NCBI RefSeq assembly: GCF_001909285.1
Contig: NZ_MRSV01000001.1
Span: 887,331-951,330 of the forward strand
Source of the DNA: Exiguobacterium profundum
Lineage (GTDB): Bacteria > Bacillota > Bacilli > Exiguobacteriales > Exiguobacteriaceae
Direction of reading: 5' to 3'
Length of the DNA: 64,000 nucleotides
Both the position numbers and the translations under genes were made by a program. The notes beneath the pieces were generated by a model. It searched no databases. It was not told where the DNA came from and saw nothing but the letters and a program-made list of their open reading frames with translations. Below are positions 9,865-28,578 of the stretch, in pieces. How positions within the stretch are numbered: the stretch's first letter is position 1; every line of letters begins with the position of its first letter.

Positions 9865-12324
9865 TTAACTTGATGATGCTTTCTTATATTGTTGGAAGAA
9901 GACTTCGATTTCTTCCGCCGGCAAAGGACGATTGTAGAAATATCCTTGTGCCTGATTACATGATTCGGCTTTCAGAAAAGCGACTTGGTTCTCTGTTTCG
10001 ACCCCTTCCGCGATGACGTTCAAATCGAGTTCGTGCGCCATCCGGATGATTGTTTTGACAAGAGCTGCATCTTTTTCGTCGCTCTTGATATTTTTCGTGA
10101 AGTGTTGGTCGATCTTGAGCGTATCGATTGGGAACAGTTTCAAATAACTGAGGGAGGAATACCCGGTTCCGAAATCGTCGATGGAAAGATGGACGCCGAG
10201 GGCGACGAGTTCATGCATCGTTTCGATGGCGCGATCCGCACTTTGGATGACACTCTCGGTCAACTCAAGCTCTAAATATTGTGCCGCAAGACCGGATGAG
10301 GCGAGTGCCCGATTGACGACCTCCGGTAAATCTTTTTGTGCAAACTGAACGGCCGAGATGTTGACGGCGACTCGGAACGGGGGAATCCCCGCATCTTGCC
10401 ACGCCTTGTTTTGACGACACGCCTCATTTAAAACAAACTCGCCGAGACGATGGATGCTCCCTGTTTCCTCAGCAATCGGAATAAACTCACCAGGTGAAAT
10501 CATCCCGAGATCCGGGTGTTGCCAACGGACGAGCGCTTCCATACCGATGATGGTTTCCGTCTCCAACTGAATTTGCGGTTGATAATGTACAGAGAACTCG
10601 CCACGACCGATGCCTTTACGGAGCGCCATTGATAAGTTCGAGCGGCGGGACACTGATTCGTTCAATTCGTTCGTGAAGAATTGATAGCCGTTTTTACCGT
10701 CCGCCTTCGCCCGGTACATGGCGATATCGGCATTCTTAATCAATTCCTCGGCCGTATCGCCATCGGACGGATGGAGACTGATTCCAATCGAGGCACCCGT
10801 GAACACTTCTTCATTCTCGAGTTCAAACGGAGGATGGAGGACGTTGATGAGTTCCTGTGCGTGATGGGCTGCCAAGTTACTTTTCGTATCAGGCGATAAG
10901 ATGATGAACTCATCCCCACCGAGTCGGGCGAGCGTGTCCGTCTTTTTAATGGTCGACTCGATCCGATTGGTTACTTGTTTCAAGAACTGGTCGCCAATCG
11001 AATGGCCGAAGCGATCGTTGATGACTTTGAAATTGTCCAAGTCGATATAGTATAGCGCGAACGGCTCTTGCTGGGATTGACCGAGAAGAGCATCGAGTCG
11101 GTCACTGAACAGGCGGCGGTTCGGGAGTCCCGTGAGTGGATCCAAATACACGAGATCATTGATTTGCGCCTCAATCCGTTTCCGTTCGCTGATGTCACGG
11201 ATGATACTACTGAAGAAGATTCCTTTCTCTGTCTTCCACGTGCCGAGAGACATTTCAATTGGTACTTCGACGCCGTCCTTTCTTAGTCCGATGAGTTCCA
11301 CCGTTTGACCGATGACGCGTTTTTCACCCGTTGCTTCGTAGCGACGCATTCCACGTTCATGCGCCTCGCGGAAACGTTCTGGAATAATGGCGACAATCGA
11401 TTGTCCGACCATCTCGTCAGTCGTGTAACCGAACAAGTCGGTCGCTCCTTGGTTCCACTGTAGAATGACACGAGTGTGGTCAGCGACGATGATGGCATCC
11501 GAGGCGGATTCGATGATGGATTCGAATTTCAACTCGAGTTCTTCCGACTGTGCCTCCAGTTGCGAAGCCGTCCGGAGCGAGATGTACATCAAAATGAAAA
11601 GTGTCATGACGCTCGCTGCGATGACGTAGGCGAGGAGCGTACTGTCGACCGAGTATCCACTGACCGGTTGCGTTCCCTCGCTCATCTCTGTGAAACGAGC
11701 CGCGCCCATCCCGACGTAATGCATGCCGGAAACGGCGACCCCGATTAATACAGAACTGGCAAGGCGACGCCAATGGAATCGGGAGACGTTTGGGATATAG
11801 AAAAGGATATACAGGCCGACGAGCGAAGCCACAAAGGCGACGATGGCAGAAGCGATCCACATGACCGGGTCATAGGTAAGAATCGCATTCATCTGCATCG
11901 CTTCCATCCCGATATAGTGCATCGAAACAACTCCGACACTAATCAAGAAGGCACCAAAGACGAGTTGAATTGGTCTTGTCTCAGGGTGACTGATGATCCA
12001 GAAAGCAAGACCGGAAGCGACGACGGCCGGCACGATGGATAATAATACGATGCCGAGATGGTACGTCACATCATCGTGCAAGTGAAACGCCAGCATACCG
12101 ATGAAGTGCATGGCCCAAATGCCGAGACCGAGGCTGAAGGCGCCAGCTACGACCCACCTGAGTCGCGAGGCGTGCTTCGCATATTTCAAACGACTGCTAA
12201 TATCGAGAGCGACACCGGCAGCGAAGATGGCGACAGCGATGGAAAGAATGACGAGTGGTAAGTTATATGAGCTACTCAGGTGATGTTCGATGAGAAACAG
12301 TCCTTTCGATTTCAAATGGTACAA
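9865..12324 (-). CDS. dgcW: MHYT-PAS-GGDEF-EAL c-di-GMP turnover protein (DgcW/YkoW-like)
   Basis: An 819-residue membrane protein. Seven helices form an MHYT sensor with repeats MHFIGM (72-77), MHYIGM (135-140) and MHYVGM (201-206), proposed to bind copper and sense O2, CO or NO. A PAS domain follows (about 265-380), then GGDEF (motif 469-473, intact) and EAL (EALVRW, DDFGTGYSSLSYLK and AEGVET, all intact). The I-site position reads KKTD, lacking the arginine, so product inhibition may be weak. Architecture and length match B. subtilis DgcW (YkoW). The start is unclear: TTG at 12324 has no ribosome site, while AAAGGA near 12300 precedes no standard start codon. Divergent from the RpiR gene. 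Confidence 0.85.
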   Translation of the reverse strand: MYHLKSKGLFLIEHHLSSSYNLPLVILSIAVAIFAAGVALDISSRLKYAKHASRLRWVVAGAFSLGLGIWAMHFIGMLAFHLHDDVTYHLGIVLLSIVPAVVASGLAFWIISHPETRPIQLVFGAFLISVGVVSMHYIGMEAMQMNAILTYDPVMWIASAIVAFVASLVGLYILFYIPNVSRFHWRRLASSVLIGVAVSGMHYVGMGAARFTEMSEGTQPVSGYSVDSTLLAYVIAASVMTLFILMYISLRTASQLEAQSEELELKFESIIESASDAIIVADHTRVILQWNQGATDLFGYTTDEMVGQSIVAIIPERFREAHERGMRRYEATGEKRVIGQTVELIGLRKDGVEVPIEMSLGTWKTEKGIFFSSIIRDISERKRIEAQINDLVYLDPLTGLPNRRLFSDRLDALLGQSQQEPFALYYIDLDNFKVINDRFGHSIGDQFLKQVTNRIESTIKKTDTLARLGGDEFIILSPDTKSNLAAHHAQELINVLHPPFELENEEVFTGASIGISLHPSDGDTAEELIKNADIAMYRAKADGKNGYQFFTNELNESVSRRSNLSMALRKGIGRGEFSVHYQPQIQLETETIIGMEALVRWQHPDLGMISPGEFIPIAEETGSIHRLGEFVLNEACRQNKAWQDAGIPPFRVAVNISAVQFAQKDLPEVVNRALASSGLAAQYLELELTESVIQSADRAIETMHELVALGVHLSIDDFGTGYSSLSYLKLFPIDTLKIDQHFTKNIKSDEKDAALVKTIIRMAHELDLNVIAEGVETENQVAFLKAESCNQAQGYFYNRPLPAEEIEVFFQQYKKASSS

Positions 12325-19697: not shown

Positions 19698-20492
19698 TTA
19701 TTCCGCGCTCTTTGGACGTTGTTTCGAAGACACGGTCAACGCTTTGATCCCGTAACGTGTATCAAGGTCACGCAACTCTTGAATGCGGTCTTTTGACCAT
19801 TGATCTTTTGCTACGGTCGTGTAGTTGAAGCTTTCCCACATCACGCCATCCACATATGGATACGTATACGTCTTCAATGTCGCAAATCCCCAGTTTTGAA
19901 TGAGAGAAAGGGAAGGGTGATTGGATTTGATCGTCTTCATGAACTGACTCATCCCGTCACGTTGCGCTTTTAAAATGGTCGGTTGTTCCGAGTGCTCATT
20001 ATCGATGTTGCCGACGGTATCTAAGAACGCACCATCCAATCCTTTGGCGACGATTTGTTTCTCCACTTCACGCGTCAACAACTCACGATAGTGGGTTGAC
20101 GTCATATCGACTAAATAAGAATCCCATTCCGCATAATGAACACGTTGTCCGTTGCGGTGGAAGAAGTCCGACTCGTTCATCTGACTGATGAAATCGACGT
20201 TCCAATTGTCAGCTTCCATCGTGTTGATGTAGCCGTACACTTTTGTCCCATATTTCTGTAACTCTTTGATTTGCGCTGCAGTATAATAAACAGGCTCGAT
20301 GATGACAAGGTCATACTGTTGCATCTTTTTAATTTTGGTCTTTGTCGGCATATCGTAATAAATTTTGTACGATTCGACGTTTGCGAGCGGATTGCTCGCT
20401 TTAGCGACCGCTTGTTGCGGCGTCAAAAACGCCAATCCAACGAGAAATGCACAACAGATGGTCACGATTCGTTTGGCTGAGAAAATAAACAT
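19698..20492 (-). CDS. Secreted GH114 / PelA-hydrolase-like glycosidase
   Basis: A 264-residue protein with a signal peptide (MFIFSAKRIVTICCAFLVGL, cleavage near AVAKA) and a single TIM-barrel domain of the GH114/endo-alpha-1,4-polygalactosaminidase type. YDLVIIEPVYYT, the acidic GLDGAFLDTVGN near residue 160 and DGVMWESFN near 225 supply the conserved Asp and Glu. Such enzymes cleave alpha-1,4-linked galactosamine polymers, the type of linkage in Pel. Directly divergent from the Pel operon, whose own PelA lacks a hydrolase domain, so it is the likely matrix-cleaving partner. Its leader carries a candidate c-di-GMP riboswitch. The substrate assignment is inferred. Confidence 0.8.
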   Translation of the reverse strand: MFIFSAKRIVTICCAFLVGLAFLTPQQAVAKASNPLANVESYKIYYDMPTKTKIKKMQQYDLVIIEPVYYTAAQIKELQKYGTKVYGYINTMEADNWNVDFISQMNESDFFHRNGQRVHYAEWDSYLVDMTSTHYRELLTREVEKQIVAKGLDGAFLDTVGNIDNEHSEQPTILKAQRDGMSQFMKTIKSNHPSLSLIQNWGFATLKTYTYPYVDGVMWESFNYTTVAKDQWSKDRIQELRDLDTRYGIKALTVSSKQRPKSAE

Positions 20493-20499
20493 AAAAAAA

Positions 20500-20615
20500 C
20501 CCTCCTGATAGTTATCAGAGAGCGGCTGCGGCTATTGCAGACTGGCGATCGGTATCTAAAAAGATCGACGACCCATGTCTTTGCGCCCTTACTTTTCAGT
20601 AAGTTTGCCCGTCTC
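20500..20615 (-). promoter_or_regulatory. Candidate cyclic-di-GMP-I (GEMM) riboswitch with expression platform
   Basis: Read on the minus strand, the 5' leader of the GH114 gene contains GGGCAAAC, a CUUAC-UGAAAA-GUAAG hairpin with a GAAA-type loop, then GGCGCAAAGAC and a P3 arm closed by GACxUGG and CCAxGUC: the order and key bases of c-di-GMP-I aptamers. P1 would pair GAGACGG (20609-20615) with CCGCUCUC (20518-20525). The same CUCUC is the 5' arm of a competing hairpin (20500-20522) that engulfs the GGAGGG ribosome site and is followed by seven U. The structures exclude each other, so ligand binding would open the gene (ON switch). Identification is by eye. Confidence 0.7.
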
Positions 20616-20688
20616 GATATGAAATTTTTGTCGACAATCCATTGAAAGTCCTACTACTAAAATACCACGTAAAGGAATGAGTGACACT

Positions 20689-21915
20689 ATGATTTATACC
20701 CAACACCGCACATCCATCAAATGGATTGAAATGATTGTGACTATTTTACTTATCGGCATTTTGGACTATACATTTAGTCTTTCTTTGTCAGATTGGGCGA
20801 TTGACCCGTTAATTTTTTATATCCTCCTGTTTTCTTTACGATATGGTTTGCTCGGTGCCTTCGTCAGTTTCGCGTTGACGAGTCTCTACCATTTCTCATT
20901 CCTCTTGATGGAAGGCTCAGACTTGCTCTTATTCCTTTACGATACGAATGAACTGGCTTGGATTTTGCTACACTTCTTCGTCGCGCTTAGTGCGGGTGTC
21001 TTCAGTACTTCTTATCGGGAGCGTTACCAGTCGCTCCACATTCGTCAAGAAGAAGTGATTGATGAGAACGAACAACTGAAACAGACGATACAACAACTAC
21101 AAGAGTCGCAAGGGGAGATGCGGAAGCGGGTGCTCGACTCGACTTATACGCTCTCAAAAATTTATGAGATTGGACTACAACTTGATCAGGATGCGACCGC
21201 TTTAGTACGTGATCATTTAATTGGAACGTTCACGCGTGTCTTCCGTGCTCGTCAACTCGCTTTATATCATGTGGATGCATCGCGGCGCACACTCCGTCTT
21301 CATGTCCGTTCCGGAGAGGTAGAACGTTTGCCCCAGACGCTTTTCATCGATTCGGAGGAGGGAATTTTCGCACGGATGTTCCAATCAAAAAAGCCGACGC
21401 TTCGTTTAGCAGATGAGCTAGATGGACCGCTTCTCGTTGCACCGATTTGTTATGAAGGAACGGTGAAGGAAGTCTTGGTCGTCCATGAAATCGATATCTT
21501 ACGCTTACGTAGTCATGAGATGAACATGATGAAACTCGTCTTGGATTGGACGGGAACGCGCATTGAAAAGGCCGATGCCCTCGAATGGATGCTCGTCAGC
21601 GACCAACTCGTCGACGGGACGCACATGTTCCGTATGGAAGCATTCGAACAAAAAGTGGCCCAACAAGTACTTCGTCATGAGCAATATGGTCAACCGTATA
21701 GTACGGTCACATTGCCTGTAGAGGGTGTGGACTTGTCATTGATTGAAATGGAATTGATTTTGAGACAGTCGATGCGTGAAATTGACGTTATCGGATATGA
21801 CGAAGACGATCGCATCCTTCATTTTCTCCTCCCAGGTACACCGGTTGAATCAGCCGAACGATTCAAGGAACGGATTGAGCATGTCTTCTATGTGAAAGGT
21901 GGGAAACGCCTATGA
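20689..21915 (+). CDS. pelD: PelD, c-di-GMP-responsive Pel regulator
   Basis: About 408 residues. Four N-terminal membrane helices (to about residue 110), a coiled coil, a GAF domain (about 150-290) and a C-terminal degenerate GGDEF domain. The GGDEF site reads DEDDR, so no cyclase activity is expected, but REID at residues 363-366 keeps the RxxD inhibitory-site pattern that binds c-di-GMP in PelD. It activates Pel synthesis at the membrane. ATG at 20689 gives a 12-base spacing to AAAGGA; ATG at 20677 abuts it. First gene of pelDEA(DA)FG, overlapping pelE by ATGA. Confidence 0.88.
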   Translation: MIYTQHRTSIKWIEMIVTILLIGILDYTFSLSLSDWAIDPLIFYILLFSLRYGLLGAFVSFALTSLYHFSFLLMEGSDLLLFLYDTNELAWILLHFFVALSAGVFSTSYRERYQSLHIRQEEVIDENEQLKQTIQQLQESQGEMRKRVLDSTYTLSKIYEIGLQLDQDATALVRDHLIGTFTRVFRARQLALYHVDASRRTLRLHVRSGEVERLPQTLFIDSEEGIFARMFQSKKPTLRLADELDGPLLVAPICYEGTVKEVLVVHEIDILRLRSHEMNMMKLVLDWTGTRIEKADALEWMLVSDQLVDGTHMFRMEAFEQKVAQQVLRHEQYGQPYSTVTLPVEGVDLSLIEMELILRQSMREIDVIGYDEDDRILHFLLPGTPVESAERFKERIEHVFYVKGGKRL

Positions 21916-22826
21916 CCGGTTGGATGATTCTTCTTTTCTTCCTTCTGCATGCGACGGTCCTTTTCGTCTTGTATCGACTGATTGTACGACCGAAAGTCGA
22001 TGCGACGGAAAAGGGAGTCTGGCTCTCGATATTTCTCGTCAGTGCCGTCATCCCGATTGTCGGAGAACTGTTTGGTTTGATTGGATATGTGATTGCCCGA
22101 CGCTTCGCCTCACCGAAGACGCTTCTCGACTACGATGAGTACATCAACTTTGAGACGGTCAACTTAGAACGCTTGCAGCAACAGGCGAAAGAAGATTTAG
22201 ATCTCGTCCCATTGACGGAAGCCTTACAGATGGACGGGAACAAACGGAAACAATCGATCACACAACTCATGTCGACACCGCTCATGAATACAGAAGAATA
22301 TTTACACTTAGGTCTCGAACACGAGGATACGGAAACGGTCCACTATGCAGCGACTGTCCGAAACACATTGTTTGACCGATACGATTTGATGTTAAAACAG
22401 CGAATCGCACAAGTGAATCCGGAGCGACCGGAGACGATTTATCCGGTAATCGAGACCGGGATCTCGTTCTTGGATAGCGGTCTCTTGGATCAAGATATGC
22501 AAATGCGCATCCAGCAACGGATATTATTTCACCTCGATCAATTGAGTGAGTACGACGAAACAGACGAAACGTACTTACGCACGAAAGCCCGCCTCTCGTT
22601 CCGCTCGGGTGACTTGGAAACGGGAGAACGATTGGCTGAGGCGCTCACCCTTTATCATCCAAAAGTACCCGATGGATATGTCATGTTGATTGAACACCAC
22701 ATGACGAACGGCGATTGGACGTCCCTACGTCCTACCCTCGACCGCCTGCATCAACATCTCGATTTGCAAGACATTCCAGAGGACTATCGCTTTGTCATTC
22801 AACAGTTAGAAGGTGCCCATATATGA
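21912..22826 (+). CDS. pelE: PelE, Pel synthase complex membrane/TPR protein
   Basis: 304 residues: two N-terminal membrane helices (3-25, 35-65, ending GLIGYVIARRF) followed by a cytoplasmic helical region with TPR-like repeats (residues 130-300). The 4-base ATGA overlaps with pelD and pelA show tight cotranslation. PelE works with PelD, PelF and PelG in the inner-membrane synthase. Identity rests on position and architecture, since PelE diverges strongly in sequence. Confidence 0.82.
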   Translation: MTGWMILLFFLLHATVLFVLYRLIVRPKVDATEKGVWLSIFLVSAVIPIVGELFGLIGYVIARRFASPKTLLDYDEYINFETVNLERLQQQAKEDLDLVPLTEALQMDGNKRKQSITQLMSTPLMNTEEYLHLGLEHEDTETVHYAATVRNTLFDRYDLMLKQRIAQVNPERPETIYPVIETGISFLDSGLLDQDMQMRIQQRILFHLDQLSEYDETDETYLRTKARLSFRSGDLETGERLAEALTLYHPKVPDGYVMLIEHHMTNGDWTSLRPTLDRLHQHLDLQDIPEDYRFVIQQLEGAHI

Positions 22827-24664
22827 ATAAATCGATTACGACGTATATCGCGTCTTTGTTCTCTTTACTCATCGCGATGATTGTCGTCGTCCAGTTTTTA
22901 CGGCTTGACTATGGTCATCGGCTCATCCCAAAAGAAGCACATGAGCCGAAATCCTTTACGACACTCGCGGGTGAGGTGAGAGCGGTGGAGGGGGATCCGG
23001 TTCAAATCTACATCCATCAGAATGACGACGATTTGTCGACAGCTGTTTTGAATAACTTTAAATATGCGCTCGACTATGCAAAGTTGCCTTATACCTCGAT
23101 TGAAGCAGAGGCCATCGCATCGATTGAGCCTTCTCCACGACACGTTCTCGTCGTCAGCGGAGAAAATACGAAATCATGGCCGTACGAGGCAATTCGGTCG
23201 TTCGTTGAAAAAGGTGGACGGCTCTACGTTGCCGGACGATTCATCGATCAAGACTGGGCAGACCTGGTCGGCGTAAGCGATTTTGGGGACTTTAAAGATG
23301 GAGTCAACGGGTTGATTTTCGAACAAGAAATTTTCCCTGGGTATGTCGACTTGCCTCAAGACTCAGGGTTATTCGTCCACAGCATTGCTGACGTCAAACT
23401 GAAAGAAGAGGCGGACGTCCTCATTTCTGCCAAAAACGAACCAATATTATGGCAGTCTCCTTATGGGAAGGGCGAAGTGATGTTTTGGAATACGACGTCG
23501 TTGACGGATAAGAACTCACGCGGCTTGATGGTGCAGACGCTTTCGATGCTGTTCCCAGCGTTCGTCATGCCACAAGCTGGCATCAAGGTCGTTCACCTTG
23601 ACGACTTCCCGGCACCGGTACCAAATTATTCGAATCCGGTCATCACGAAAGAATATGATTTGTCCATCAAAGAGTTCTTCTCAGAGATTTGGTGGAGAGA
23701 CATGAAGCAAATCGGTGCTGACTACGACGTCACTTATTCTGGTTTCTTGATCGGCAGTTATAAAGCGACGAATGAAGAGACGACAGAACAGCTCATCGAA
23801 AAAATTCGGGCACCGATGCTCGAATATGGTCGCGGTTTACTCCAAACGAATGGGGAAGTCGGGCTACACGGGTTCAACCACCAGCCACTCGTCATGGGAG
23901 ATGAAGTGATGGACCCGGAGCTTGGATATACAAAATGGGACAGTCAGGAAGATATGCGTTCCGCCATTGACCGTGTCGTTGAGGCGTTTGACTATTACTT
24001 GCCGAATGAGCGGATCCGCAGCTATGTGCCACCATCGAACATCATCGGTCAATCCGGACTTGAAGTGTTGAACGAGAAGTTTCCGAAAGGGCTGATTGTC
24101 GCAGGACTCTACAGCGGAGATGCGACGAAAGGAAGTTACATTCAAGAGTTCGGACCCGACCCGGTCTATCCGAACTTGTACGATTTTCCTCGCGTATCGA
24201 GCGGATACAACGAGACACCGGATGATCTATTTGTCGTCATTGATGCCGTCGCCAACTTCGGACTCGTTTCCCACTTCATTCACCCGGATGATGTGTTAGA
24301 TGACTATCGCTCGAAAGGGAAAGGGTGGGAGATGATGAAAGAATCGTTTGGAGGTCTGTTCCAGACACTCTACTCCAAATATCCACATCTCGAGGGCTTG
24401 AGCCAATATGACGCGTATCGAAAATATAAGCTTTATCAAGATGCGCAAATCGATGTGGCTTACACGAATGATGCTATCGATATCAATGCCCAACAACTGC
24501 CTGTCCCGTCGACGTTACTCGTTCGTGTGCAACCTGGGAAACGTCTCGATACAGGGACGTTCGATTATGGTGAAGTCAAGCCATTTGATGAGAATGGTAC
24601 ATTGTATCAAGTTGAATTGAGAGACACGTCTGTTCGTCTCCCGATATTGGAGGGTCGCCCATGA
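22823..24664 (+). CDS. pelA: PelA-type Pel deacetylase (membrane-anchored, no hydrolase domain)
   Basis: 613 residues. An N-terminal membrane anchor (residues 5-26) exposes a glutamine-amidotransferase-like region (about 60-240) and a CE4-like deacetylase domain (about 250-560) with KVVHLDDFPAPVP for the metal aspartate and GLHGFNHQPL for the HxxxH pair. It corresponds to the PelA(DA) form of Gram-positive Pel clusters, removing acetyl groups from the GalNAc polymer at the cell surface. The start ATG at 22823 overlaps the pelE stop; AGAAGGTG precedes it. The hydrolase function appears moved to the divergent GH114 gene. Confidence 0.85.
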   Translation: MNKSITTYIASLFSLLIAMIVVVQFLRLDYGHRLIPKEAHEPKSFTTLAGEVRAVEGDPVQIYIHQNDDDLSTAVLNNFKYALDYAKLPYTSIEAEAIASIEPSPRHVLVVSGENTKSWPYEAIRSFVEKGGRLYVAGRFIDQDWADLVGVSDFGDFKDGVNGLIFEQEIFPGYVDLPQDSGLFVHSIADVKLKEEADVLISAKNEPILWQSPYGKGEVMFWNTTSLTDKNSRGLMVQTLSMLFPAFVMPQAGIKVVHLDDFPAPVPNYSNPVITKEYDLSIKEFFSEIWWRDMKQIGADYDVTYSGFLIGSYKATNEETTEQLIEKIRAPMLEYGRGLLQTNGEVGLHGFNHQPLVMGDEVMDPELGYTKWDSQEDMRSAIDRVVEAFDYYLPNERIRSYVPPSNIIGQSGLEVLNEKFPKGLIVAGLYSGDATKGSYIQEFGPDPVYPNLYDFPRVSSGYNETPDDLFVVIDAVANFGLVSHFIHPDDVLDDYRSKGKGWEMMKESFGGLFQTLYSKYPHLEGLSQYDAYRKYKLYQDAQIDVAYTNDAIDINAQQLPVPSTLLVRVQPGKRLDTGTFDYGEVKPFDENGTLYQVELRDTSVRLPILEGRP

Positions 24665-26079
24665 AAATAGGAATTGTTGTCGAAGGGAGTTATCCATATG
24701 TGAGCGGCGGCGTATCGAGCTGGGTTCACATGCTGATGGAACAGATGCCGATGCATGAGTTTGAGATTATCTCAATCATGCCGAATCCGAAGACAGAGGC
24801 AGATTATCGCTATAAGTTACCGAAGAACGTCACAGGCGTCACCACGCTCGCCCTCAATCAACGGACGACACGGAAACGTCGACCGGAAGCGTTATCGGAA
24901 GCGGAACGGGAGCGAATCAAGACGTGGATGACATTCGGTCAAGTCGATTCGTCCATCTATCCGATTCTTGAAAATCAAATCGGGACACCAGAACAATTCT
25001 TCTCGAGTCGTCTCTTCTATCAGCTCGTCACGGAGAGCTATCAAGAAGAAGGGCAGGCCGGTTCGTTTATCGATTACTTTTGGATGTGGCGCAGTATGTA
25101 TGCGCCTGTCCTTGATTTACTCCAAGCCGGATTACCTCAGGTCGACCTCGTGCACGCGGCCTCGACCGGATATGCGGGTCTGATTGCGAGTGCGATGAAA
25201 GAACGACAAAACATTCCGTTTCTTTTGACTGAACACGGCATCTATTCGCGTGAACGGGAAGAAGAACTGTTGCAGGCATCTTGGATTCCGGCTGAGTTTC
25301 GCTCCCATTGGATTCAGTTCTTCCACCACATTTCCCGGGAAGCGTACCGAAAGGCAGATGACGTCATCACACTCTTTGAACGAAACGGCGAGTTGCAACG
25401 TCAGCTCGGTGCACCTGTTGAGAAATTAAGTATCATTCCGAACGGGATTGACGTGACGGGCTTGTCTGCTCTCGGGCATGTGCCGGGAGTGGATAAACTA
25501 CGAATCGGTGCCATCGTTCGCGTCGTTCCAATCAAAGATATTAAAACCATGATTTATGCGGCGAAACTGTTACAAGACATGCTCGTCCCGTTCGAACTGA
25601 CCATTATGGGACCACTTGATGAGGATAAGGAGTATGCGACGGAGTGCGAGATGCTCATTCGGCAACTCGAGCTTGAACAGTCCGTCTTGATGGTCGGAAA
25701 AGTCGATATTCGACAACACCTTCCCGAATTCGATGTTTGTTTGTTGACGAGTATCTCCGAAGGACAACCGCTTGCTGTACTAGAAGGTATGGCCGCTGGT
25801 GTCCCGTGGATTGTGACGGACGTCGGGGCCTGTGCGGAACTCGTGAACGGGCGACCGGATGAACCGTTCGGTCCGGCCGGATTTGTCGTTCCGCCGGTCA
25901 ATCCACGGCGAATCGCAGAGCGTTGCGCCTGGTTCCATCAAAATCGTGAAGATGCGCGCCGACTCGGACGAAACGGGCAACAGCGAGTCGAGACGTACTA
26001 TCGCACCGATCAGTTTATCGATGCATATCTACACTTATATGAAGAGAGGAGAGCGGTATATGGCGGGCATCGGGTTTAA
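24661..26079 (+). CDS. pelF: PelF, cytoplasmic Pel glycosyltransferase (GT4)
   Basis: 472 residues starting MKIGIVVEGSYPYVSGGVSS, the hallmark opening of PelF. GT-B fold with C-terminal nucleotide-sugar motifs IGAIVRVVPIKDIKTMI and LTSISEGQPLAVLEGMAAG (the EX7E pair). It polymerises the Pel chain from UDP-activated HexNAc. It overlaps pelA by 4 bases and pelG by 20 bases. Confidence 0.93.
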   Translation: MKIGIVVEGSYPYVSGGVSSWVHMLMEQMPMHEFEIISIMPNPKTEADYRYKLPKNVTGVTTLALNQRTTRKRRPEALSEAERERIKTWMTFGQVDSSIYPILENQIGTPEQFFSSRLFYQLVTESYQEEGQAGSFIDYFWMWRSMYAPVLDLLQAGLPQVDLVHAASTGYAGLIASAMKERQNIPFLLTEHGIYSREREEELLQASWIPAEFRSHWIQFFHHISREAYRKADDVITLFERNGELQRQLGAPVEKLSIIPNGIDVTGLSALGHVPGVDKLRIGAIVRVVPIKDIKTMIYAAKLLQDMLVPFELTIMGPLDEDKEYATECEMLIRQLELEQSVLMVGKVDIRQHLPEFDVCLLTSISEGQPLAVLEGMAAGVPWIVTDVGACAELVNGRPDEPFGPAGFVVPPVNPRRIAERCAWFHQNREDARRLGRNGQQRVETYYRTDQFIDAYLHLYEERRAVYGGHRV

Positions 26080-27520
26080 GTTACAACAGTTGTTTCAAGA
26101 AGACTACTTCTCTTCACGAATCAAAGCATATGCATTTGCCGGGCTCGTCACATCAGGACCATGGCTGATCGTCATCGTCACGATTGCCCTCATGCAGTGG
26201 CTGACGAGCTATCTATCTATCGCTACACTCGAAGAACGCACGACGTTCAATTTGATCGTCTCTTACAGTTTTATTTTTTCGCAAGTCTTTCTCGGCGTGC
26301 AGCAGCTCGTTGTCACGAGGTACTTGGCGGATTGTTTTTATGAGAAACGATATGAAGACATCTTCCCGGCGTTCATCGGGATGATGAAGACGACGGTCGC
26401 CATCGCGTCGCTGTTGTTCGCTATCTTCCTCATGTTCTCTGAACTCCCTGCTTTATTGAACGCGTTGGCATTCGTCCTATTCATGACGGTCAACCTCATT
26501 TGGGTACACTTCTTGTTCCTCAGTGCGGCCAAGTTCTATCAGGCGGTAGCCTATAGCTTTGTGGCCGGTGGCATCGTCTCAGTCGCCGCGGTCCTCATCA
26601 CGGACCAGTTCTTGATGCAATATTTGACGGAGTCCTACATGAAGAGCTTCGCGTTGACAGCGAGTATGACACTCGGTCTTGTCGTCACGTTGTTCGGCTT
26701 GTTCACATCGATGCTCCTTACGTTCCCAAACCGTAGTACGGTCGGTCAGTTCTCGTTCTATCGCTATTTTGACCGCTACCCGGCACTCTTTTGGACCAGT
26801 TTTCTCTATAACATCGGGATCTGGGTCGGCACATGGATCATCTGGTTCGCGGAAGGAGGGAGTGTCCACCTCGACACATTCCGCTATCATCCGATCTATG
26901 ACACAGCTATCTTCCTCTCTTATTTGACGATCATTCCGACGATGACGATATTCGTTGTGTCGGTCGAGACGCGTTTTTATGAGCGGTATCGCGTGTTTTA
27001 TGGATACGTGAACGAAGGTGGGACGTACCAACAGATTCAACGTTCGAAAGCGGCCATGCTCCTCGTCTTACGACAAGAGTTGCAACGACTGTTCCGAAAT
27101 CAAGGGCTCGTGTCGCTTCTCTTTATTCTGTTCGCGGCCGTCTTGTTCCCGCTACTAGGTCTGTCACCTGAGATTCGGGATGTCTTTCAAATGACGACGA
27201 TTGGTGCCTTTTCAAACGCCATGGTGCTCGTTCTCACGCTCGTCCTGCTCTATTTTGAAGATCATCGGGGAGCGGCGTATACATCGGCACTCTTCATCAC
27301 GATGAATGCAGGGTTGACGTTCTTGCTATTACCACTTGGACCAGACAGTTACGGTCTTAGTTTTGCGATTGGTTGCACGATTGCGTTCGCGTTCTCACTC
27401 ATTCGCTTGATTCGATATGTATCCGAGATTGATTATCACACGTTTAGCCGAAGCGAAACACCTCCGCGTACGGATACATTCCGTCGTGTCGGGGACTGGC
27501 TCAATGATCGCTCGGCTTAA
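26060..27520 (+). CDS. pelG: PelG, Pel exporter (12-TM, MOP-like)
   Basis: 486 residues with about 12 membrane helices. MAGIGFKLQQLFQEDYFSSR followed by AYAFAGLVTSGPWLIVIV is the typical PelG N-terminus. AGAGGAG lies before ATG 26060; the in-frame extension to 25859 lies within pelF and is rejected. PelG passes the growing Pel polymer across the membrane. Confidence 0.92.
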   Translation: MAGIGFKLQQLFQEDYFSSRIKAYAFAGLVTSGPWLIVIVTIALMQWLTSYLSIATLEERTTFNLIVSYSFIFSQVFLGVQQLVVTRYLADCFYEKRYEDIFPAFIGMMKTTVAIASLLFAIFLMFSELPALLNALAFVLFMTVNLIWVHFLFLSAAKFYQAVAYSFVAGGIVSVAAVLITDQFLMQYLTESYMKSFALTASMTLGLVVTLFGLFTSMLLTFPNRSTVGQFSFYRYFDRYPALFWTSFLYNIGIWVGTWIIWFAEGGSVHLDTFRYHPIYDTAIFLSYLTIIPTMTIFVVSVETRFYERYRVFYGYVNEGGTYQQIQRSKAAMLLVLRQELQRLFRNQGLVSLLFILFAAVLFPLLGLSPEIRDVFQMTTIGAFSNAMVLVLTLVLLYFEDHRGAAYTSALFITMNAGLTFLLLPLGPDSYGLSFAIGCTIAFAFSLIRLIRYVSEIDYHTFSRSETPPRTDTFRRVGDWLNDRSA

Positions 27521-27561
27521 CAATCGCAGCAGATGAACTTTCAGAAAATGGGGTGAAGCAC

Positions 27562-28578
27562 ATGAAAACAATTTTTGTGACAGGTGGCGCGGGGTATATC
27601 GGGACACACACGACGGTGCAATTGCTTGAGGAAGGATACGAAGTCGTCATTTTGGACAACTTGTCCAATAGCCGACAAGAGGCGATTCAGCGAATCGAGA
27701 TCCTGACTGGAAAGACGGTCACCTTATACGTGGGCGACATTCGAGATCAGGAATTGCTTGATGAAATCTTCTCCACGCACTCGATTCATGCGGTCGTTCA
27801 CTTCGCGGGTCTAAAGGCAGTCGGCGAATCCGTCAGCCAACCACTTCACTACTATGACAACAACGTAGCTGGGACGCTCGTCTTGTTACGGATGATGAAT
27901 CAATTTGGGATAAAACGTATCGTCTTCAGTTCATCGGCGACCGTTTACGGAATCCCAACCACATCTCCGGTCGATGAATCGTTCCCGCTCAGTGCGACCA
28001 ATCCATATGGACGAACGAAACTGATGATCGAAGAGATATTGCGCGACCTTTATACAGCTGATTCTTCTTGGTCGATTGCGATTCTTCGCTATTTCAATCC
28101 GATTGGCGCGCACGACTCCGGGACGATCGGCGAAGATCCGTTCGATGTCCCAAACAACTTGATGCCATACATCACACAAGTCGCGGCCGGGCGTCTAAAA
28201 GAGCTTCAAGTGTTCGGGGATGACTATCCGACGCATGACGGGACAGGCGTGCGCGACTATATCCATGTCGTAGATTTGGCGCTTGGTCATTTGAAGGCGT
28301 TGGAGTATGTGGGGAAATATGAAGGGGTGGAGGCGTTCAACCTCGGGACAGGGAAAGGATACAGCGTCCTTGATTTGCTTCAAACGTTCCAACAGGAGAG
28401 CGGACAGACGATTCCTTATCAAATCACGGATAAACGAGACGGAGACGTCGCGGCGATATTTGCCGACCCGCAAAAGTCTAAGGCCATTCTTGGCTGGGAA
28501 GTGCGACATGACATTGAAGCGATGTGTCGGGACGCTTGGCGTTGGCAATCGAATAATCCGAAAGGGTACAGTGAATAA
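27562..28578 (+). CDS. galE: UDP-glucose/UDP-GlcNAc 4-epimerase (first copy, Pel-linked)
   Basis: 338 residues, SDR fold: TGGAGYIGTHTTVQL NAD-binding motif, SSSATVYG, YxxxK as NPYGRTKLMIEE, and the RYFNPIGAH and YIHVVDLA signatures. GGGGTGA precedes ATG 27562, 40 bases after pelG, so it is probably the sixth gene of the Pel operon, supplying UDP-GalNAc or UDP-Gal. A second galE lies in the galactose operon at 44691. Whether it acts on N-acetylated sugars cannot be told here. Confidence 0.88.
   Translation: MKTIFVTGGAGYIGTHTTVQLLEEGYEVVILDNLSNSRQEAIQRIEILTGKTVTLYVGDIRDQELLDEIFSTHSIHAVVHFAGLKAVGESVSQPLHYYDNNVAGTLVLLRMMNQFGIKRIVFSSSATVYGIPTTSPVDESFPLSATNPYGRTKLMIEEILRDLYTADSSWSIAILRYFNPIGAHDSGTIGEDPFDVPNNLMPYITQVAAGRLKELQVFGDDYPTHDGTGVRDYIHVVDLALGHLKALEYVGKYEGVEAFNLGTGKGYSVLDLLQTFQQESGQTIPYQITDKRDGDVAAIFADPQKSKAILGWEVRHDIEAMCRDAWRWQSNNPKGYSE

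Follow-up and report, generated by a model that had tools for sequence, protein, structure and literature searches.

The window (the whole stretch of DNA that was analyzed: 64,000 nt of Exiguobacterium profundum, NZ_MRSV01000001.1, positions 887,331 to 951,330, forward strand) carries a gene for a PelA-type hydrolase, pelAH, and, divergent from it, a pel operon followed by galE.

19698..20492, minus strand: pelAH, PelA-type hydrolase with a signal-peptide-like start (PF03537, 45.2 bits; 264 aa)
20677..21915, plus strand: pelD, divergent, RxxD (REID) motif present (synteny and alignment over 14 PelD)
21912..22826, plus strand: pelE (position and homology among loci)
22715..24664, plus strand: pelADA, a deacetylase-only pelA, true start probably inside the frame (PF09960, 317.7 bits)
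24661..26079, plus strand: pelF (NF038011, 368 bits)
25859..27520, plus strand: pelG, true start probably inside the frame (PF16933, 461.5 bits)
27553..28578, plus strand: galE (TIGR01179, 459.5 bits)

The order pelD-E-A(DA)-F-G, with a PelD that retains RxxD, is that of the Gram-positive pel locus (pelDEADAFG), and it agrees with a preliminary description of this DNA, which had proposed a divergent Pel operon with a c-di-GMP-responsive PelD. No Pfam match was obtained for pelE, and PelD had no match in Pfam or among PDB structures; RE[ILV]D was conserved in all 14 PelD aligned. Binding of c-di-GMP by the PelD I-site is described in PMC7112168, and the RE[ILV]D of these PelD is, judged from sequence, predicted to be such a site. 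The divergent pelAH/pel layout in bacilli was likewise in print in 2020 (PMC7112168). About 8 kb from the riboswitch described below, a protein with MHYT, PAS, GGDEF and EAL domains is encoded (9865-12324, minus strand), so the organism possesses c-di-GMP enzymes.

The leader of pelAH, which is transcribed away from pelD, contains the following features.

20533..20619, minus strand: c-di-GMP-I riboswitch aptamer (RF01051; cmscan 65.7 bits, gathering 35, E 1.2e-10)
20609..20619, minus strand: candidate P1 5' arm UAUCGAGACGG (best duplex with the 3' region, -10.8 kcal/mol, ends adjoining the core)
20513..20525, minus strand: candidate P1 3' arm CCGCUCUCUGAUA, overlapping the strand that hides the ribosome site (duplex and constrained folding)
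20502..20522, minus strand: hairpin CUCUCUGAU / AUCAGGAG covering the Shine-Dalgarno (ViennaRNA)
20500..20505, minus strand: Shine-Dalgarno GGAGGG (sequence)
20493..20499, minus strand: U7 between the hairpin and the start codon (sequence)

The aptamer ends 40 bases before the pelAH start codon, and its 5' edge lies 57 bases from the pelD start. A c-di-GMP-I aptamer had been proposed here from motifs (GGGCAAAC, a GAAA loop, GGCGCAAAG, a closed P3, the ribosome-site hairpin and U7), all of which are present in the sequence, and the covariance model bore the proposal out with a match spanning model positions 1-87, the full model (Rfam cmscan of the whole window). No other Rfam family was above its cut-off in the 64 kb, and a genome search gave no second RF01051 in the strain's own genome. 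The short P1 3' arm proposed earlier, CUCUC, falls within a longer possible arm (20525-20513, opposite the 5' arm at 20619-20609); P1 lies outside the Rfam RF01051 model, and the helix itself is hence a prediction. With the core taken from the Rfam alignment, P2 and P3 pair without mismatch and the pocket C (the C that we take to bind the ligand) is present in 11/11 leaders. At the putative site where G rather than A would set c-di-GMP sensors apart from cGAMP sensors, the window reads GGGC. The element is very probably a riboswitch that controls pelAH.

P1 and the ribosome-site hairpin use one common strand, and the two computed pairings are mutually exclusive; a short P1 (CGG/CCG) is compatible with the hairpin in the window's core-forced fold. 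The letters of the 5' arm and the hiding strand vary among leaders (GAGACGG/CCGCUCUC in the window, GAUGG/CCGUC and AUAG/CUAU in Fictibacillus, GAUGG/CCAUC in G029 and Ectobacillus, AAUGG/CCAUU in Alkalicoccus). When own arms were compared with swapped arms over eight leaders, 759 of 40,320 permutations were equally good; own versus shuffled arms gave a Fisher combined p of 0.021 over eight groups, with no group alone below p 0.047. These comparisons lend modest support, at the level of pairing and not of ligand dependence, to the alternative 5'-arm helix being real. The best 5'-arm duplex adjoins the core in 12/15 leaders when the arm is cut there.

The hydrolase of intact strain s48, 95% identical to the window protein, matched the Pseudomonas PelA hydrolase domain 5tcb by sequence in the PDB (E 1.7e-08), and 5tcb was also the top Foldseek match of its AlphaFold model (mean pLDDT 89.4; E 2.4e-16). 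Through this homolog the Pel-type hydrolase named in the preliminary description is backed by both sequence and fold. The label GH114, which came from a name only, was rejected: PF03537 matches, yet the best structural relative is the hydrolase domain of PelA, and PelAH is therefore the better name. E220, the candidate catalytic Glu, is invariant in 16/16 PelAH aligned and was paired with E213 of Bacillus cereus (PMC7112168) by position only. The preliminary description overlooked the early end of the pelAH frame, which leaves 264 aa against 285 aa in intact strains s48 and SL-9 (21 residues missing). When placed on the s48 model, the truncation interrupts helix 259-268 and takes away strand 272-275, leaving the barrel incomplete. 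Modeled in this way, a barrel enzyme without its last strand would probably be unstable, and PelAH of the window strain is probably defective, a sequencing error being possible; because it is 21 residues short and lacks the final barrel strand, the enzyme may be dead. The early in-frame stop lies at 19698-19720 (minus strand); the sequence around it differs from s48 in several places, and the frame is open beyond it.

Distribution of the riboswitch

RF01051 was found above its cut-off before pelAH in Exiguobacterium, Pseudalkalibacillus, Halobacillus, Fictibacillus, Alkalicoccus and Ectobacillus, and in genera g13, g66 and g81, which may overlap with the six named. Across a sample of 398 Bacilli genomes, the aptamer lay directly before pelAH in 13 of the 42 with a pelAH match (3/12 in group g1, 5/5 in g2, 5/25 elsewhere) and was missing there in 29, including 9/12 in the window's genus. 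By Rfam it preceded pelAH in 6/8 non-Exiguobacterium loci (the Ectobacillus leader being interrupted by repeats), 4/8 Exiguobacterium loci and 10/20 further loci, one of them listed as RF03167 in one scan and as RF01051 in another; the sets of 8, 8 and 20 loci overlap in genomes, and their counts are not additive. Rfam scans covered 16 of 26 pelAH loci; the other 10 are on contigs that agree in length with contigs of genomes already searched, and no further RF01051 was found there. The pairing of riboswitch and pelAH, which had been noticed at this one locus, is thus found again in other genera.

Among the 19 genomes of the window's genus, RF01051 matched seven times in six genomes, before pelAH in three (G000, G015 and G016). 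In nine others, a pelAH of another, lipoprotein-like kind heads a co-directional pel operon and RF01051 is absent; G015 has both kinds of pelAH. Four g2 genomes (G132, G193, G261 and G331) have RF01051 but no pelAH match; Halobacillus AcN35-2 and Salimicrobium share the pel layout and gave no RF01051 match, and a family search around G029 (11 genomes) yielded no new case. This patchy presence suggests repeated gain or loss.

Four of the 13 genomes with an aptamer-bearing pelAH (G141, G161, G171 and G191) have this gene separated from PelG by more than 300 kb or on a different contig, so the riboswitch is tied to pelAH and not to the operon. A riboswitch on the pel operon itself was looked for and rejected: among 32 non-Exiguobacterium genomes with PelG over the cut-off (all such genomes save G306), RF01051 within 12 kb of PelG occurred only in G029, before pelAH.

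Sign of control

We infer the response to ligand, P1 in the bound state and the sign of control as follows. Without ligand, CUCUCUGAU would pair with AUCAGGAG and hide the ribosome site, and the U run that follows the hairpin in the window strain and its close relatives may halt transcription as well. With c-di-GMP bound, P1 (UAUCGAGACGG with CCGCUCUCUGAUA) would capture the hiding strand and translation would begin, making an ON switch; the PelD protein would detect the same ligand, so that c-di-GMP would start Pel synthesis and trimming together. The preliminary description had c-di-GMP turning on both PelD-driven synthesis and the hydrolase; the RxxD of PelD and the aptamer of pelAH fit its two sensors, while the ON sign is ambiguous and the hydrolase of the window is truncated.

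When core and P1 were both forced, the ribosome site was more exposed than in the free fold in 9/9 leaders (range 0.29 to 0.97), in a folding that assumes P1 and so tells what P1 would cause, not that it forms. Exposure rose from 0.16 to 0.76 in the window, from 0.04 to 0.88 in SL-9, from 0.31 to 0.97 in Fictibacillus and from 0.01 to 0.57 in G029, and only slightly in Alkalicoccus, Pseudalkalibacillus and Exiguobacterium g2; in Alkalicoccus, forcing both still left the site largely closed (0.29). Relative to core plus hairpin, the P1 state is less favorable by 1.5 to 4.5 kcal/mol in 9/9 leaders, and whole-leader ViennaRNA does not reproduce an ON switch. Because the site is closed even in the free folds of the window and s48 (both 0.16), SL-9 (0.04) and G029 (0.01), only opening would matter there, which tips the window towards ON at close to even chances. 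That the riboswitch controls pelAH and also turns it on is, as one joint claim, about evenly balanced, and we lean to ON over OFF.

Described switches offer parallels to the proposed ON design. Two of them, Bc4 and pilM, the latter a family member that senses cGAMP, are described as ON with a hairpin that uses a P1 strand (PMC9262584, PMC4759541), as in the core plus P1 state proposed for the pelAH leader, where the candidate P1 has a strand in common with the hairpin. Bc2 of Bacillus thuringiensis is also described as ON (PMC4933901). Bc2 and Bc3-5 (B. thuringiensis/cereus) resemble the pelAH element in being class I aptamers of Bacilli; the Bc2 hairpin abuts its gene and the Bc4 P1 strand is shared with the hairpin, both as in the pelAH leader with its candidate P1. 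They differ in target (a collagen adhesion protein for Bc2 and cspABCDE for Bc3-5, against a polysaccharide hydrolase here) and in acting by termination, unlike the hiding of the ribosome site proposed for pelAH.

An OFF switch is possible, if on the doubtful side. The ligand-free 5' arm would then pair with the hiding strand and core bases and leave the ribosome site open; the core formed by c-di-GMP would release the hiding strand and the site would close, making the hydrolase a dispersal enzyme, produced when c-di-GMP and Pel synthesis drop. The strongest 5'-arm pairing does extend past G11 into core bases (G12/C13) in 13/15 leaders, as expected if this helix belonged to a ligand-free, open structure. 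Forcing the aptamer core alone reduced exposure in 9/11 leaders (up in one, the same in one). Exiguobacterium g2, Pseudalkalibacillus and Halobacillus have leaders whose unconstrained fold leaves the site about half exposed (0.37 to 0.68); for G029 and the lineage of the window, on the other hand, there is no open free fold for the ligand to close. Were the long P1 part of the bound state, the site would open in all nine leaders, and Vc2, itself a translational OFF switch, needs P1 for ligand binding, whereas Cd1, also OFF, binds ligand without detectable P1 (PMC9262584). The f36 genomes have a separate terminator that lies behind the aptamer and coexists with it, and core forcing raised its probability from 0.76 to 0.96 (G171), from 0.89 to 0.98 (G161) and barely, from 0.945 to 0.950, in G191, in the direction of OFF; because of this separate terminator, sign and mechanism may differ among lineages. 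Precedents fall on both sides: all seven functional class I switches of Clostridioides difficile are described as OFF (PMC6366702), with the PPEP-1 protease under such a switch and its substrates under class II (PMC11477304) as a working model, against the Bacillus switches Bc2 (PMC4933901) and Bc3-5 (PMC4759541), described as ON.

It is improbable that the aptamer is real and regulation absent or minor in the window strain, with the hydrolase truncated and the leader a decaying remnant. The early stop, the several nearby changes relative to s48 and the lost final strand fit such decay, as does Bc1 of B. thuringiensis, a conserved aptamer described as having hardly any response in vivo (PMC11218506); against it, the leader is nearly identical to that of intact s48 and close to that of SL-9. 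Since the leader is near-identical to that of s48 and the reading frame continues uninterrupted beyond the stop, any decay is recent.

Pure transcription-terminator control through the hairpin and U7 is very improbable: a U run directly follows the hairpin in the window, s48 and Alkalicoccus (U7) and in SL-9 (U5), and the Bc2 terminator abuts its gene as well (PMC4933901), but the ribosome site lies inside the hairpin, a simple terminator scan found none, and Exiguobacterium g2, Pseudalkalibacillus and Halobacillus have the hairpin without a U run. Hiding of the ribosome site is, because of these three lineages, the common feature, and termination is at most an add-on in g1 and Alkalicoccus.

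Discussion

Neither the aptamer class nor the enzyme nor the locus is new. PelA of Pseudomonas aeruginosa matches the PelAH hydrolase by sequence and fold and has hydrolase and deacetylase in one pel-operon protein, whereas the window has pelAH and pelADA separate; we know of no riboswitch for the P. aeruginosa protein. Hydrolysis by P. aeruginosa PelA reduces adherent biomass and yields secreted Pel, and the reason exopolysaccharide loci encode a hydrolase acting on the polymer they produce is described as unclear (both PMC9894940).

Closer to the window is B. cereus ATCC 10987, with pelDEADAFG and a divergent pelAH; there, PelD must bind c-di-GMP for Pel to be made, and strains that lose pelAH form more biofilm, so that an anti-biofilm role of B. 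cereus PelAH is in print (PMC7112168). The word riboswitch is absent from that paper. The nearest working model is that of C. difficile, in which PPEP-1 and adhesins are inversely controlled by two c-di-GMP riboswitch classes (PMC11477304). As here, a secreted enzyme that cuts surface material is under a c-di-GMP-I riboswitch and its substrates under the same ligand; unlike here, protease and adhesins are both controlled by RNA, whereas at the pel locus RNA would control the hydrolase and a protein, PelD, would control the synthase.

Among the open-licence PMC papers listed in the searches, none was found that describes this riboswitch in front of pelAH, the repeated occurrence of that pairing in several genera or the fact that it does not depend on the pel locus; PMC8876208 contains both 'pelDEADAFG' and 'riboswitch', the latter in its reference list. 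On balance we think it somewhat more likely than not that one messenger sets both sides of Pel turnover at two levels, acting on synthesis through the PelD protein and on cutting through the recurrent pelAH riboswitch, that the riboswitch stays with pelAH far from pel, and that the hiding and freeing helices were rebuilt in different lineages, perhaps with opposite signs. A c-di-GMP riboswitch on a Pel hydrolase offers a direct test of what the enzyme is for: if ON is true, trimming is part of building; if OFF is true, the hydrolase serves leaving. The leader RNA of pelAH is short and suits simple assays, and the answer is checkable across lineages because the pelAH riboswitch occurs in several genera.

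Several minor observations were made alongside. A perfect 10-bp palindrome, TTGTCGACAA, lies just upstream of the aptamer (20628-20637; single copy in the window, 0.16 expected), is present in s48 too and imperfect in SL-9, and is a possible operator between the divergent genes. Within the genus, RF01051 also precedes a transglutaminase-like protein in G010 and G013 (PF01841; L005, L006), whose leader is, by eye, the same as that at the second match of G016 (L007), and a lipoprotein-like protein without a Pfam match in G003 (L002). The genomes with a co-directional pelAH (L011-L020) have a second, longer pelAH homolog away from pel, in frames of 429-494 aa with a repeat-rich tail. In G109 (G109:C1:2967886-2967972), RF01051 and a distant pelAH homolog share a strand, with the aptamer 7.4 kb upstream of the gene. 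The pelAH aptamer of Ectobacillus antri (L038:7431-8000) has more than 400 nt of repeats between its two halves (a 124-nt unit in 2.7 copies, plus a 51-nt direct repeat), and its 3' half, read by eye, stands just before the gene.
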